NCBI GenBank assembly: GCA_031287685.1
Contig: JAITSQ010000018.1
Location: 1-49,434, forward strand
DNA length: 49,434 bases
Direction of reading: 5' to 3'
From: Clostridiales bacterium
Lineage (GTDB): Bacteria > Bacillota > Clostridia > Lachnospirales > WQUN01
The stretch's first letter is position 1. Each line of letters starts with the position of its first letter. The notes under the pieces are model-generated. The model did not search any database and was not told the origin of the DNA. It saw only the letters and a program-made list of their open reading frames with translations. The translations under genes were made by a program, and so were the position numbers. Below, one piece after another: positions 14,181 to 49,286 of this stretch.

Positions 14181-14654
14181 ATGATTTTACCGACGCAGCA
14201 TTTCGGGGAGATTGAAATCTCCGAGGAACAGATAATAACGTTTGAGGGCGGCCTGCCGGGTTTTCCGGAGGATCTCCGCTTTATAATCATCGAGGACGGA
14301 GAGCCGGAAAGCCCGTTTTGCTGGCTTCAGTCCGTGGACGACACGGACACCTGTTTCATCTTAATGGACGTGTTTTCGTCGAATTTTCCGGATTACGCGC
14401 CGGAGCTTCTGCCGGAGGAGGTGCTCTCCCTGGGGGAATTTAACAAGGAAACGGCCAAAGATTTCCTCATATATAACATCGTCGTACTGCCGGAGGATTC
14501 AAGCAAGATGTCCGTAAATCTTCTCGCGCCGGTGCTCATAAACCAGGCGGCCCGGCGGGGGGCGCAGTTAATCGCCCAGAACGCGGACGAAAAGGGCTAT
14601 ACTGTGCGCCACTACATACTCGGCGCGGATTCAGCCGAAAGCGAGGGGTTATAA
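14181..14654 (+). CDS. fliW: flagellar assembly factor FliW
   Basis: 157 aa, normal length. Family landmarks are [21 protein letters not shown] at the start and a middle [16 protein letters not shown]. FliW binds either flagellin or CsrA; when flagellin is scarce it captures CsrA, releasing flagellin mRNA for translation. ATG 14181 is chosen over GTG 14172 because AGAGGTGG lies at proper distance. Its stop overlaps the csrA ATG (TAATG), giving coupled synthesis of the antagonist pair. Confidence 0.95.
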
Positions 14655-14896
14655 TGCTGGCCTTGACCCGGAAAAAAGGCGAATCTATTATGATTGGCGA
14701 CAATATAGAGGTCGTCGTGCTTGACTGGCGCGGAGAGCAAATAAAACTGGGCATAGTCGCCCCGAAGGAGATACCTGTGCATAGAAAAGAAATATACGAG
14801 CAGATTCAGGCAGAGAACAAACAGGCGCGGTTTTCCGGCGGCGCGGGCTTTGAGCAGCTGAAGGAAATTAAGAAAAAGAAACCGCGGGAGCTGTAA
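14654..14896 (+). CDS. csrA: translational repressor CsrA
   Basis: 80 aa, beginning [16 protein letters not shown] with [15 protein letters not shown] and the RNA-contact segment [13 protein letters not shown], all diagnostic. CsrA binds GGA motifs presented in hairpin loops and at ribosome binding sites. Likely targets in this window are the two flagellin leaders at 44155 and 49149. The C-terminal tail ([21 protein letters not shown] region) is somewhat longer and more basic than in enterobacteria, as is usual where FliW controls CsrA allosterically. Confidence 0.96.
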
Positions 14897-44008: not shown

Positions 44009-44061
44009 TATTGAGGAGGCAGGCCCCCGCGAAAAAAATTAAAAATTTTTTTTCAAAAACC

Positions 44062-44090
44062 CTAAAGTAATTGGCGAGGGGAGCCGATAA
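44062..44090 (+). promoter_or_regulatory. sigma-28 promoter of flagellin 1
   Basis: CTAAAG at the -35, 16 nt between TAAA and GCCGATAA. The TAAAGTAATTGGCG half is identical to that of flagellin 2. An A/T tract (AAAAAAATTAAAAATT) lies just upstream, like an UP element. FlgM at 7348 is the matching anti-sigma factor. Confidence 0.85.
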
Positions 44091-44154
44091 TGAATCGTAA
44101 GCGGTAAATACATAACAAAACCGCTTATAGCGTGAAAGGATTTCGCGCTTGAAC

Positions 44155-44182
44155 GGGCGGCGGACCCGCCCACGAAGGGAGA
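44155..44182 (+). promoter_or_regulatory. candidate CsrA-binding leader of flagellin 1
   Basis: GGGCGG, loop CGGAC, CCGCCC forms a hairpin showing GGA in its loop. A second GGA sits in the ribosome binding site AAGGGAGA, 8 nt before the ATG. This is the two-site layout of the Bacillus hag leader. The flagellin 2 leader has the same loop on another stem. Confidence 0.7.
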
Positions 44183-44189
44183 AATTTTT

Positions 44190-45620
44190 ATGAGTAACAC
44201 AGTAGTTCAAACTAACGTACTTGCGCTGAACAGCCACCGCAACCTTAAGGTAATCGGCGTGCTTCAGAGCCGTTCCTCGCAGAAACTGTCCTCCGGTTAC
44301 CGGATTAACAGCGCTGCGGACGACGCGGCCGGCCTCGCGATAAGCGAGAAGATGCGCAGCCAGATTCGCGGCCTTGACATGGCGAGCAAGAACAGCCAGG
44401 ACGCGCAGTCCCTGATTCAGACCGCCGAGGGCGGCCTTCAGGAAATCGACAACATGGTTCAGCGTATTCGTGAGCTTGTGGTTTACGCGAGCAACGATAC
44501 AAACGACCAGAAAGACGCCGAGAAGAGCCAGGGCGACCGTCAGAAAATCCAGGACGAAATCAACCAGCTCACCGTGGAAATCGACAGCATCTCCGGACGC
44601 GTTGAGTTCAACAAGAAGAAAGTAATCAACGGCGAGAGCACCGACTACAACGTTCGCTTTGGCGAAATAGCCGGACGGATGGAGCAGAACGTTGCCTCCT
44701 TCACGAAGGCTCTGGACAACATTTCTACCGCTCTTGCCACGCTGAGTTCTCTTACCGACGCTACCGGGCGCACCATTGGCCAGGCTATCTCGGACGCGAA
44801 CAACGGACTTTCTCTGACCAACTCCGCCGTCACGATGACCGCGAACTTCACCTATAGCGCCGGCTCCGGGAATCAGGTATCCTTTTCGATTGGCGGTCTG
44901 AGCCACGTTACCTACGCCGGTTCCAGCGCGTCCACCGGGATTTCGACTTCTGGCGGAGAAATTAACTCGGCCGTGTCGGACTACTCAGACGGCAACCGCG
45001 ACGTTATGCCCGCGCTTTCTGACGTCCTCAACAGCATCAACGCTTGGGAGTCCGCCGTTAAAGAAAAGGGTACGATTCTTACCTCCGCCGAGGCGCAGGC
45101 TCTTGACACCCTTAAGTCGAACCTCCGCACAGCTTACAACGCTGTCGGCAGCAATATCGACCTGTTCAACGAGGCGCACAATATTCAGGAAATCAAAACC
45201 CAGCAGGGTCTGTATTTCCAGGTGGGCGCGAACGCCGGCCAGGGTATGTACCTGTCGATTAACAAGATTAAGACCGACACGCTGGGCATTGGTAACGGCG
45301 GCGGCCAGAGCTTCATCGACGTGCGTGAGGAGACTGGGCGTAACACGACCGAGTACCTCAACACCCTTGACCGCGCTCTTACGATTGTTACGACCGAGCG
45401 CTCCAAACTCGGCGCGGCGTACAACCGTCTTGACTACACGATTAAGAGCCTCGACACCTCCAGCGAGAACCTGTCCGCTGCCGAGAGCCGCATAAGAGAC
45501 ACAGACATGGCGAAGGAAATGATGAACCTTACAAAGGCGAACGTTCTTCAGCAGGCTGGCGTTTCTATGCTCGCTCAGGCGAACCAGGCTCCGCAGAGCA
45601 TTCTGTCGCTGCTTAGGTAA
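44190..45620 (+). CDS. flagellin 1
   Basis: 476 aa filament subunit. N-terminal D0/D1 helices (SRSSQKLSSGYRINSAADDAAGLAISEKM region) and C-terminal D1/D0 (RDTDMAKEMMNLTKAN) are conserved. The central part (about 160-330) is a variable surface domain rich in Ser, Thr and Gly (FTYSAGSGNQVSFSIGGLSH). Codons differ from the surrounding genes: CGT, GCT and CAG are used more, fitting very high expression. No internal stop. Terminator at 45657. Confidence 0.97.
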   Translation: MSNTVVQTNVLALNSHRNLKVIGVLQSRSSQKLSSGYRINSAADDAAGLAISEKMRSQIRGLDMASKNSQDAQSLIQTAEGGLQEIDNMVQRIRELVVYASNDTNDQKDAEKSQGDRQKIQDEINQLTVEIDSISGRVEFNKKKVINGESTDYNVRFGEIAGRMEQNVASFTKALDNISTALATLSSLTDATGRTIGQAISDANNGLSLTNSAVTMTANFTYSAGSGNQVSFSIGGLSHVTYAGSSASTGISTSGGEINSAVSDYSDGNRDVMPALSDVLNSINAWESAVKEKGTILTSAEAQALDTLKSNLRTAYNAVGSNIDLFNEAHNIQEIKTQQGLYFQVGANAGQGMYLSINKIKTDTLGIGNGGGQSFIDVREETGRNTTEYLNTLDRALTIVTTERSKLGAAYNRLDYTIKSLDTSSENLSAAESRIRDTDMAKEMMNLTKANVLQQAGVSMLAQANQAPQSILSLLR

Positions 45621-45656
45621 TCTGGCAAGTACGTTTGAAAAGCTACTCATAAAAAC

Positions 45657-45684
45657 AAAAAGCCGGGGGAAACCCCGGTTTTTT
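45657..45684 (+). terminator. rho-independent terminator of flagellin 1
   Basis: AGCCGGGG and CCCCGGTT pair over a GAAA tetraloop, followed by TTTTTT. Confidence 0.85.
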
Positions 45685-45709
45685 GCTCTGTATAAAAAGG
45701 AGCCGCCTT

Positions 45710-46261
45710 ATGTCCCGCCGATATTTTGAACTTTTCGTATCCTCTTTCGTAATCAGCGCGTTTACGTTCGGCGGCGGATACGCCATTGTGCCGCTGTTTA
45801 AGCGCAAATTCGTGGACGACCTGCGGCTTATGAGCGAGGAGGAAATGCTCAACCTGATAGCGATAGCCCAGGCCGCGCCCGGCGCGATGGCCATAAATAC
45901 GGCTATGCTGGCGGGTTATAAGACGGCGGGGCTTGGCGGGGCAGCCTGCGCGGTCGTGGGGACAGTCCTGCCGCCGCTTGTGGTGATTTCCGCGGTTTCG
46001 GTTTTTTACCGCAGGCTGAGGGATAGTTACGCCGTATCGGCGGCGCTGGCGGCGATGGCGCCGGCGGTGGCGGCGACGGTGGCCTCCGCCGTGTGGAGCT
46101 TGGGCCGAGGGGTCATAAAAAGCCGCGGCGGCGCGCTGGCGGCGCTGGCGGCTTTCGTGGCGGCGGCGGTTTTCCGCGTGAACGTAATGTATATCGTGCT
46201 GGCTTTCGCGGCGGCGGGGTTCGTTTCCGGCTTCCTCCGCCCGGGAAGGGGGGGGCGGTAA
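45710..46261 (+). CDS. chromate transporter, N-terminal-type half
   Basis: 183 aa (ATG 45710, AAAGGAG site), six or so membrane helices. FTFGGGYAIVPLFKRKFVDD and QAAPGAMAINTAMLAGYKTAG are the CHR family signature. It is the short split form: two CHR halves encoded by adjacent genes, functioning together. Actual substrate may be chromate or sulphate-like anions; resistance is not proven. Stop overlaps the next start (TAATG). Confidence 0.9.
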   Translation: MSRRYFELFVSSFVISAFTFGGGYAIVPLFKRKFVDDLRLMSEEEMLNLIAIAQAAPGAMAINTAMLAGYKTAGLGGAACAVVGTVLPPLVVISAVSVFYRRLRDSYAVSAALAAMAPAVAATVASAVWSLGRGVIKSRGGALAALAAFVAAAVFRVNVMYIVLAFAAAGFVSGFLRPGRGGR

Positions 46262-46827
46262 TGATAGGCGCGCTTTATTTCGAGTTTTTCAAAATCGGGC
46301 TGTTTTCGGTCGGGGGCGGCTATTCGTCGTTCGCGCTGATTCAGCACAGGCTCGTGGAGGAGCTTGGCTGGCTCACGCCCGCCGAATTTACAGATGTGCT
46401 GACGATTTCGCAAATGACGCCGGGGCCCATTGCCATAAACGCCGCCACTTTTACGGGCGTAAAGACGGCCGGCCTGCTCGGCGGGCTGGCGGCGACGGCG
46501 GGCTATATAACCGCGCCGGCGTGCGTCGTCAGTATACTTGCGCATATGTACTTTAAGTACAAAAAAATGGATATTATGCAGGGGGTAATGAGCCTGCTTC
46601 GCCCAGCCGTGCTCGGGCTGATTTTTTCGGCGGCGGTTTCCGTGACCACGCTTGTTTTTTGGGGCGGGCGGCAAATATCCCTGGCCGCGCTTGACGTTAA
46701 ATCCGTAATTATATTCGCGATAGCTCTTTTCGCGCTCAGCGTGAAAATTCGGGGCAAAAAAATAAGCCCCGTGTGGGTCGTGGCCGTGAGCGGGGCGGCG
46801 GGTTTTTTGGCGGCGCTGCTTAAATAA
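46261..46827 (+). CDS. chromate transporter, second half
   Basis: 188 aa, again a CHR domain: FSVGGGYSSFALIQHRLVEE, ISQMTPGPIAINAATFTG. Together with the preceding gene it forms the antiparallel two-domain transporter. ATG overlaps the previous stop. Confidence 0.9.
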   Translation: MIGALYFEFFKIGLFSVGGGYSSFALIQHRLVEELGWLTPAEFTDVLTISQMTPGPIAINAATFTGVKTAGLLGGLAATAGYITAPACVVSILAHMYFKYKKMDIMQGVMSLLRPAVLGLIFSAAVSVTTLVFWGGRQISLAALDVKSVIIFAIALFALSVKIRGKKISPVWVVAVSGAAGFLAALLK

Positions 46828-46850
46828 TCTCCACACGCTATGAACAAGAG

Positions 46851-46882
46851 TTATCCACACCTGTGGATAACCGTGTGGACAA
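46851..46882. promoter_or_regulatory. cluster of DnaA-box-like sequences
   Basis: TTATCCACA (46851-46859) and TGTGGATAA (46862-46870) are two perfect DnaA boxes facing each other with CC between. TGTGGACAA (46874-46882) is a third with one mismatch. An AT-rich stretch (TACTATTAGTACAAAAAATG) follows. It could be an origin part, a DnaA-titration site, or simply a palindromic 3' end of the transporter genes. Confidence 0.5.
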
Positions 46883-46930
46883 CTGTACTATTAGTACAAA
46901 AAATGACGAAAAAAGTCAAATTATTGCGGA

Positions 46931-47764
46931 TTATCCCGAATAAACCGTGTTTTCATACGCGTTAATGAGCATAGGCGTGTAGTCGTCTTTTTTGAAAACC
47001 CTGTAAAACGGTTGGGCCGAACCCTTTTCCGTCTGCATATAGACAAGCTCGACGCGTTCGATGGACACGGGGCTGTACCCATAGATGTTTTGAAGCTCGT
47101 ACATACAGGACATAAGCGCCTCGTCGGGGGCGCATATTTCGCGTTTCTGCCCGGTGAAACCGACGGGCGCGGCGTACATAAACTCAACGCGGGATACTCC
47201 CGTATCGCCCACGGAAATTATGAGGAAATTGCTGTTGACGACGAATTTCCCGTATTTCTGGCGAAATTCAAAGGTAAGTCCGTCGCTTGAGGAGTAGGAG
47301 AGGTCCTCGCGAAAATCCGGCACGCCGAGCCGCTTCAGGAAATCGGAGCAGACGCGCCGCGCCTCCGCCGGGTCGGGAGAGGCCGCCTTGACGTCCCGGT
47401 TTCGGTAGAGCACGTAGCCGTCGCTTGCGATTGTCAGAGACTCCCAGTCTGTGCGATAGACGAACCGGTTGTCCTCTATATTGAAGTCCGCCTGGCTGGG
47501 GTTTTTAATGAAAATATCGCGGAGGGCTTCATGGCTGTACTCGCTGGAAAGTTGGACGGCTAGGCCGCGCATTGGCGGAAAGGGCAGGTTTATCGGACAG
47601 TCCATTGAAATGTTGTTGTTCTGAAGAACTGTTTTTATGTCCGCGGCGCGGCGCGGCGTCAGGTGGTATTTATTGCTTGAATACAGCGCGTTGCACACAA
47701 AAAGAAAAAGATTCGTCAGGCACAGCGCGGCGATTATGCAGGTTTTGGCTTTGTTCCAGTACAT
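46931..47764 (-). CDS. YycI-like membrane-anchored protein
   Basis: 277 aa from ATG 47764 (AAAAGGTGAGATA before it). N-terminal WNKAKTCIIAALCLTNLFLF is the classic anchor of YycI, a periplasmic-side regulator of the essential WalKR (YycGF) two-component system. The rest is a beta-rich extracytoplasmic domain. No walK, walR or yycH is nearby in the window, so the gene stands apart from its usual cluster. It lies between the chromate transporter (convergent) and flagellin 2 on the same strand. Confidence 0.8.
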   Translation of the reverse strand: MYWNKAKTCIIAALCLTNLFLFVCNALYSSNKYHLTPRRAADIKTVLQNNNISMDCPINLPFPPMRGLAVQLSSEYSHEALRDIFIKNPSQADFNIEDNRFVYRTDWESLTIASDGYVLYRNRDVKAASPDPAEARRVCSDFLKRLGVPDFREDLSYSSSDGLTFEFRQKYGKFVVNSNFLIISVGDTGVSRVEFMYAAPVGFTGQKREICAPDEALMSCMYELQNIYGYSPVSIERVELVYMQTEKGSAQPFYRVFKKDDYTPMLINAYENTVYSG

Positions 47765-47790
47765 TATCTCACCTTTTTTCGGCATACGAA

Positions 47791-47816
47791 AGAGGCGGGA
47801 GAAAAAACCCGCCTCT
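47791..47816 (-). terminator. terminator of flagellin 2
   Basis: AGAGGCGGG and CCCGCCTCT form a strong stem over an A-rich loop (T-rich on the minus strand), followed on the minus strand by TTTCG. The T run is short. It separates flagellin 2 from the YycI-like gene. Confidence 0.65.
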
Positions 47817-47835
47817 TACATTATAACATAAATAT

Positions 47836-49119
47836 TTACTTAAGCAAGGACAAGATGCTTTGCGGAGCCTGAGTGGCCTGCGTGAGCATAGATATTCCGG
47901 CTTGGTTAAGAACGTTGGCCTTTGTAAGATTCATCATTTCCTTCGCCATATCCGCGTCCCTTATGCGGCTTTCGGAGGCGGAAAGATTTTCGCTCGTCAC
48001 GTCAAGGCTCTTTATTGCGTGCTCAAGGCGGTTATAAGAGGCGCCGAGCTTTGAGCGCTCGGTCGTGACAATCGTAAGGGCGCGGTCAAGGGTGTTGAGG
48101 TATTCGGTTGTGTTGCGGCCGGTTTCCTTGCGCACGTCGATGAGAGACTGCCCTATGCCGTTGCCAATGCCCAGCGTGTCGGTCTTAATCTTGTTAATCG
48201 ACAGGTACATACCCTGGCCGGCGTTTGGCCCCACCTGGAAATACAGACCGGTTTTATGAGTATCGCCGGCCAGTATGCCCGATTCAAGCTGCAAATCTAT
48301 TGAGGAGCCGGCGGCGTTTGCCGCGAGGCGGAGATTCGTCCTTATGTCGTCAAGGGCGTAGGCCTGCTCGGAGGTGAAAACCTTGCCCATAAGTTTGGCC
48401 GAAGTCTCCCACGCGCTTATCTTGCCCATAATACAGCTGAGGTCGGGAACGACGTAAAACGAATCCGAAAACGCGGTGCTGAAAGAGTTAAAAACGGTCA
48501 CCATAGAATCCGCGTCGGCGTATAAGTCCGTAAGCTCTAATCCCGTAGCGTCCGTAATCCCGCTGAGCTTATCCATAGCGTCCTGAATGTTATTCACGGC
48601 AAGATACCACGCGTCCAGGTTTTCGTCGAGCTTGCACACTATTTCGGCCAGACGGACAAGACCGTCGGTGCTTTCGCCGTTTATGACCTTTTTGTTGTTG
48701 AACTCGACGCGTTCGGAGGTCAGGTCTATTTCCTGGGTCAGGTAGTCGATTTCATTCTGAATCTTCTGACGGTCGCCCTCGGTCTTTTCGGTGTCCCGCT
48801 GGTCGTTTGTGTCGTTTGAGGCGTAAACCACAAGCTCCCGTATGCGCTGAACCATGCCGTCAATCTCGGATAAACCGCCCTCCGCCGTCTGTATGAGAGA
48901 CTGCGCGTCGGCGCTGTTTTTGCTCGCCATATCAAGCCCGTGAATCTGGCTGCGCATTTTTTCGCTTATGGCTAAGCCCGCCGCGTCGTCCGCCGCGGAG
49001 TTTATGCGATAGCCGGAGGCTAAGCGCTGGGACGCGCGGGACTGCTGAACGCCGACGACCTTAAGGTTGCGGTGAGAGTTAAGGGCTTGTATATTTGTCT
49101 GGACTACTGTGTTGCTCAT
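47836..49119 (-). CDS. flagellin 2
   Basis: 427 aa from ATG 49119 with GGGAGA site. N-terminus SRASQRLASGYRINSAADDA and C-terminus RIRDADMAKEMMNLTKANV are close to flagellin 1. The middle (about 155-305) differs in sequence and is shorter. Codons follow the genome norm (e.g. CGC, CGG, GCC) rather than the adapted set of flagellin 1, so lower expression or a special location is likely. It is inverted with respect to flagellin 1, about 2.2 kb away. Confidence 0.96.
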   Translation of the reverse strand: MSNTVVQTNIQALNSHRNLKVVGVQQSRASQRLASGYRINSAADDAAGLAISEKMRSQIHGLDMASKNSADAQSLIQTAEGGLSEIDGMVQRIRELVVYASNDTNDQRDTEKTEGDRQKIQNEIDYLTQEIDLTSERVEFNNKKVINGESTDGLVRLAEIVCKLDENLDAWYLAVNNIQDAMDKLSGITDATGLELTDLYADADSMVTVFNSFSTAFSDSFYVVPDLSCIMGKISAWETSAKLMGKVFTSEQAYALDDIRTNLRLAANAAGSSIDLQLESGILAGDTHKTGLYFQVGPNAGQGMYLSINKIKTDTLGIGNGIGQSLIDVRKETGRNTTEYLNTLDRALTIVTTERSKLGASYNRLEHAIKSLDVTSENLSASESRIRDADMAKEMMNLTKANVLNQAGISMLTQATQAPQSILSLLK

Positions 49120-49125
49120 AAAAAA

Positions 49126-49167
49126 TCTCCCTTCGCGGGCCGCCGTTCGGGCAAAGTCCGTTTGCCC
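49126..49167 (-). promoter_or_regulatory. candidate CsrA-binding leader of flagellin 2
   Basis: Minus strand GGGCAAA, loop CGGAC, TTTGCCC: a perfect 7-bp stem presenting GGA. It is followed at 49134-49126 by the site GAAGGGAGA with a second GGA. The loop is the same as in flagellin 1, while the stem has compensating base changes. Confidence 0.7.
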
Positions 49168-49210
49168 CGGCGTATGCGCCCGGTATGTATTATCGTATCT
49201 TGCAAATAAT

Positions 49211-49239: not shown

Positions 49240-49286
49240 CGTTTTCGTTAAATTTTTCTTAATTTTTTTATTGCCGCCTCGCCTGG

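Follow-up and report, generated by a model that had tools for sequence, protein, structure and literature searches.

The leader of the Bacillus subtilis flagellin gene hag carries two CsrA sites, one of them over the Shine-Dalgarno (SD) sequence, and the action of CsrA is relieved by FliW (PMC7652899); the upstream site comprises A51-A55 and the one over the SD C75-G82 (PMC7652899, PMC8523840). This work goes back to Yakhnin (2007) and Mukherjee (2011), as far as it is recounted in PMC7652899 and PMC8523840. In Clostridioides difficile, FliC is governed by FliW and CsrA, and two sites have been predicted in a 91-nt leader (PMC8523840), namely BS1, TGACAAGGATGT, and BS2, CTAAGGAGGG (PMC8523840, PMC11898703). 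In the case of C. jejuni flaA, gel shift and footprint experiments demonstrated that two ANGGA stem-loops bind CsrA in vitro, with FliW as antagonist (PMC4894983). The high-affinity site of CsrA/RsmE has been described as A-N-GGA-N exposed in a hairpin (PMC7652899).

Here, we analysed a 49,434-nt stretch of DNA from a Clostridiales bacterium (the window), which contains two flagellin genes together with fliW and csrA. The arrangement resembles that of B. subtilis hag in the sigma-D-type promoter, in the combination of an upstream site with an SD site, and in fliW adjoining csrA; unlike hag, there are two flagellin genes with separate leaders, and upstream of the flagellin 1 SD there are two hairpins where hag has a single one, their GGAs lying 40 and 16 nt from that of the SD. 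C. difficile belongs to the same class of organisms and has the same FliW-CsrA-flagellin circuit, but its fliC loop is AAGGAT, whereas the loops found here are CGGAC and AGGAT, one of them with G at −2. Stem-loops with GGA in the loop are shared with C. jejuni flaA, the contact with CsrA being predicted from sequence in our case; however, the second flaA loop covers the ribosome site, while both flagellin 1 hairpins lie upstream of the SD, and fliW is away from csrA in C. jejuni but adjacent to it here. We propose, with a probability of roughly 0.86, that both flagellin leaders control translation as part of a Hag-FliW-CsrA homeostasis switch.

The fliW-csrA pair and the two flagellin leaders

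The features identified are collected in Table 1. The presence of csrA and fliW in the window, already recognised by a first-pass annotation of this DNA, was confirmed by Pfam and PDB matches; the genes are adjacent, the csrA start overlapping the fliW stop by one shared base (TAATG), and each occurs once in the genome. The two proteins match the chains of 5dmb, a Geobacillus-type CsrA-FliW complex. In an ungapped alignment, L4, R6 and R44 of CsrA are the same as in E. coli CsrA, in which we take them to be the RNA-binding residues.

Table 1. Features of the two flagellin loci and of the fliW-csrA pair (GGA positions relative to the AUG; A or G at −2 relative to the GGA).
Feature	Coordinates	Strand	Evidence or remark
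fliW, CsrA antagonist, ATG at 14181 after AGGTGG	14181..14654	+	Pfam PF02623 3.5e-30; PDB 5dmb chain A 9.3e-17
csrA	14654..14896	+	Pfam PF02599 2.5e-26; PDB 5dmb chain D 5.9e-18
Sigma-D (sigma-28)-like promoter, flagellin 1: TAAAGT, 15 nt, CCGATAA	44063..44090	+	Sequence
5'-end hairpin, flagellin 1 leader, 9 bp, loop without GGA	44097..44128	+	Leader fold
Distal GGA hairpin, flagellin 1: AGCGTGAA-AGGAT-TTCGCGCT	44129..44149	+	GGA at −52, A at −2
Proximal GGA hairpin, flagellin 1: GGGCGG-CGGAC-CCGCCC	44155..44171	+	GGA at −28, G at −2
Shine-Dalgarno, flagellin 1: GAAGGGAGA	44174..44182	+	GGA at −12, BS2-like site
Flagellin 1 gene, 476 aa	44190..45620	+	Pfam Flagellin_N 6.8e-39, Flagellin_C 1.2e-28
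Flagellin 2 gene, 427 aa	47836..49119	-	Pfam match as flagellin
Shine-Dalgarno, flagellin 2: GAAGGGAGA	49126..49134	-	GGA at −11, BS2-like site
Outer stem lengthening the flagellin 2 hairpin, CGCCG ... CGGCG, 3-nt bulge	49141..49172	-	Folds
GGA hairpin, flagellin 2: GGGCAAA-CGGAC-TTTGCCC	49149..49167	-	GGA at −40, A at −2
Sigma-D-like promoter, flagellin 2: TAAAGT, CCGATAA	49211..49238	-	Sequence; aligns with flagellin 1 promoter

The consensus of sigma-D promoters is well established. Both flagellin genes are preceded by TAAAGT-N15-CCGATAA, which is sigma-D-like (for the consensus, see PMC3720852), and the flagellin 1 transcript would start near 44097. A further candidate hairpin, ATTGGC-GAGGGGA-GCCGAT (44025-44115), was dropped because it coincides with the promoter itself and is therefore absent from the RNA.

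The first-pass annotation had named one hairpin in each leader, the proximal one of flagellin 1 and that of flagellin 2, each followed by a GGA-bearing ribosome site. The coordinates and sequences of both hairpins proved exact, and the same SD is present in both leaders. Both hairpins fold stably, with the CGGAC bases of the loop unpaired at about 1.0 in an open pentaloop; the stem pairs of the proximal hairpin have probabilities of 0.98-1.0, and the 32-nt flagellin 2 element, hairpin plus outer stem, folds at −16.7 kcal/mol; the SD of flagellin 2 is mostly free (0.68). A third hairpin, the distal one of flagellin 1, had been overlooked and is closer to consensus than the proximal one that was reported. 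In the predicted ensemble of the full leader its pairing probability is about 0.55, because an alternative fold is almost equal in energy: in the minimum-energy fold, which is favoured over the two-hairpin fold by only 0.4 kcal/mol, the distal 3' arm GGAUUUC pairs with GAAAUUU next to the SD. This modelled SD-paired fold may be due to chance or may add another level of regulation.

Taken alone, the string CGGAC says little, being frequent in the GC-rich window (163 matches vs 133 expected), and we did not accept its occurrence in both leaders as evidence. Hairpins with GGA in the loop and a stem of at least 6 bp are instead rare: the two strands of the 49.4 kb together contain 28. Of these, three fall within the two flagellin leaders (~190 nt), where by our arithmetic about 0.05 would be expected. 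A search for curated Rfam families gave no match at gathering score anywhere in the window.

GGA hairpins in the flagellin leaders of relatives

For comparison, we collected the leaders of flagellin genes of relatives and of named GTDB genomes, all from genera other than that of the window. When the 64 loop triplets were ranked by enrichment over 165 flagellin leaders, GGA came first, with 82 occurrences vs 6.5 expected from dinucleotide shuffles (z 29; largest shuffle 13). The hairpin was found in 144 of the 241 leaders of the csrA-positive and GTDB set, vs 11/241 coding and 13/240 far-upstream control stretches of the same genes. A test blind to pairing, in which the last GGA before the SD was taken from each leader (n = 222), gave 5/5 flanking pairs at 103 sites, vs 6.8 (maximum 13) when the 3' sides were redealt among the leaders. 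The 103 fully paired sites have 43 distinct 5' flanks and, thus, relatives differ in the stem but retain the loop. This comparison lends strong support to the earlier claim that both leaders of the window carry CsrA-type sites, which we regard as predicted.

The GGA of the relatives' hairpins usually lies 37 nt before the AUG (quartiles 35-40) and 26 nt from the SD GGA (quartiles 24-29), a distance near the 21-nt spacing of C. jejuni flaA, for which the optimum is 18 nt (PMC4894983). Moreover, an A at −2 of the GGA occurs in 137/150 hairpins vs 141/322 GGAs outside hairpins. The flagellin 2 leader fits this layout in its GGA position, in the distance to the SD GGA (29 nt) and in the A at −2. 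Neither hairpin of flagellin 1 fits it singly: the consensus A is present in the distal one, which lies too far upstream, and replaced by G in the proximal one, and both GGA-to-SD-GGA distances fall outside the relatives' quartiles; the distance between the two hairpins is 24 nt. True double hairpins are uncommon, being found in 6/241 leaders by a loose rule, and in most of the others the second stem is weak.

Dependence of the hairpin on csrA

csrA and flagellin tend to occur together: by our tally of 393 genomes of the class, both are present in 127, csrA without flagellin in 8 and flagellin without csrA in 11. As far as can be judged from their sequences, the GGA hairpin is kept across the class in flagellin leaders of genomes with csrA and mostly lost in those without. 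In fact, it was present in 63/92 class-level csrA-positive leaders vs 1/13 leaders from csrA-negative genomes at least 96% complete (Fisher P 4e-5), although the latter set is small and includes four genomes from one genus, so that the P value overstates independence and is a guide only. The first-pass annotation had stated that relatives lacking the loop GGA while keeping csrA would speak against its proposal; such leaders are about one third of the csrA-positive ones by the criterion used, which indicates that csrA does not oblige a hairpin, but the larger part has it and the proposal largely withstands this check. In the single csrA-negative exception with the hairpin (G241), fliW is cut off at the contig end and, therefore, csrA was probably lost in assembly. 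Another csrA-negative leader (G120) has a short GGCA-AGGA-TGCC, which falls outside the 5-bp stem rule.

Correspondence between the hairpins of the two leaders

The identical CGGAC loops had been read as one duplicated hairpin whose stem was altered by compensation. Several features are in line with this reading: the two flagellins are 84% identical across their first 157 residues, the promoters and SDs of both leaders align, and CGGAC stands in both loops. However, in the optimal pairwise alignments, under all four scoring schemes, the flagellin 2 GGA lies opposite the distal GGA of flagellin 1 and never opposite the proximal one, and the distal register was found in 200/200 co-optimal alignments examined per scheme. 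Alignments forced into either register scored 77.5 (distal) vs 56.5 (proximal). In the distal register GAACGG comes after each of the two paired hairpins, and the proximal hairpin sits in a stretch about 10 nt longer than that of flagellin 2. The GGA positions of the two hairpins with the common loop are also unequal, −28 vs −40, and CGGAC is the loop of four hairpins in the leaders of relatives, including two from Bacillales (L149, L172), so this loop recurs independently.

The flagellin 2 hairpin thus likely corresponds to the distal one of flagellin 1, though this is not certain since MAFFT placed the flagellin 2 GGA on neither flagellin 1 hairpin. It follows that the comparison of the two CGGAC hairpins would have used the wrong pair, and that the common loop is probably due to chance or convergence and not to the inheritance of one loop; we consider the duplicated hairpin unlikely and, the distal register being the likelier one, we rejected compensatory evolution between the two hairpins named. 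The general form of the idea, a changed stem around a kept loop, holds for the leaders of relatives, while between these two hairpins it is not supported by the pairwise alignments.

The proposed switch and alternative explanations

The present analysis shows that the sequence elements exist, that they are conserved in relatives and that they depend on csrA; binding of CsrA, repression and relief by FliW would be expected by analogy with B. subtilis, C. difficile and C. jejuni. In the switch that we propose, a CsrA dimer would grip two GGAs, that of the hairpin loop and that of the SD, and, by holding both, would block ribosomes. FliW, once free of unsecreted flagellin, would strip CsrA from the leader, so that flagellin could be made. 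The flagellin 2 leader would have the canonical layout, with its two GGAs 29 nt apart; among the three GGAs of flagellin 1, the distal one would correspond to the standard site, with the proximal one as an addition.

The switch itself is well known; the tandem-hairpin leader of flagellin 1 is unusual. The 24 nt between its two hairpins correspond to the usual bridging distance, and we could imagine a three-site CsrA array in which one dimer would lock both hairpins or two dimers would act jointly, the alternative fold would tie the distal hairpin to the SD, and the two flagellins would have different FliW thresholds, giving an ordered or graded composition of the filament. We put this forward as a speculative extension that we rather doubt.

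Alternatively, the hairpins might be mRNA-stabilising or spacing structures of the abundant flagellin transcripts, with an incidental GGA in the loop. Flagellin transcripts are long-lived, and the flagellin 1 leader also contains a GGA-free hairpin at its 5' end. A pure stabiliser, however, would prefer no triplet, yet GGA stands far above the other loop triplets, the A at −2 is concentrated in the hairpins as compared with other GGAs, and the hairpin is lost in genomes without csrA; we thus hold this explanation to be very improbable. Least probable of all is that the hairpins gate translation by pairing with the SD region, with no protein involved: the minimum-energy fold of flagellin 1 does use such pairing, but it is absent in flagellin 2, whose SD is mostly free, and the conservation of GGA would be left unexplained, although SD pairing and CsrA control may operate side by side.

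CsrA control of both leaders, the reading we prefer, would extend the Hag-FliW-CsrA switch to an uncultured lineage of Clostridia with several flagellins, and the comparison of the GGA hairpin with the presence of csrA provides a sequence test of it across the class. If it is true that the tandem leader of flagellin 1 responds unlike that of flagellin 2, one repressor would set the ratio of two filament proteins, a simple natural case.

Other flagellins and neighbouring loci

The genome encodes a third filament-type flagellin (L222, contig C19, 34600-35900), with a sigma-D-like GCCGATAA far upstream and a nearly perfect 15-bp hairpin whose loop reads UCCU. We did not count it as a third CsrA target, its candidate stem being weak and its GGA partly paired; as it has no clean GGA hairpin, it may escape CsrA control.

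In a Clostridia genus whose complete genomes have neither csrA nor fliW (G137, G311, G415 and G441), the flagellin leaders (L208, L210, L212 and L214) share a conserved GGCGGACCTTGCGTACGNNGGAAAGCCT. A comparison of these leaders with known riboswitches and Rfam families gave no credible match, and they perhaps represent another kind of flagellin control.

Extra, divergent csrA copies were observed in several relatives (L016, L022, L036, L069 and others), some of them in tandem and no more than 1 kb ahead of a flagellin gene, as at G030:C3:160051-160430, before a flagellin at 160686, and at G033:C5:48698-49013, before a flagellin at 49266.

Finally, the region between the two flagellin genes of the window contains a pair of chromate-transporter-like genes and a YycI-like gene (46931-47785); the former (45683-46261 and about 46261-46827) seem to abut or overlap (window positions 46093-46261).
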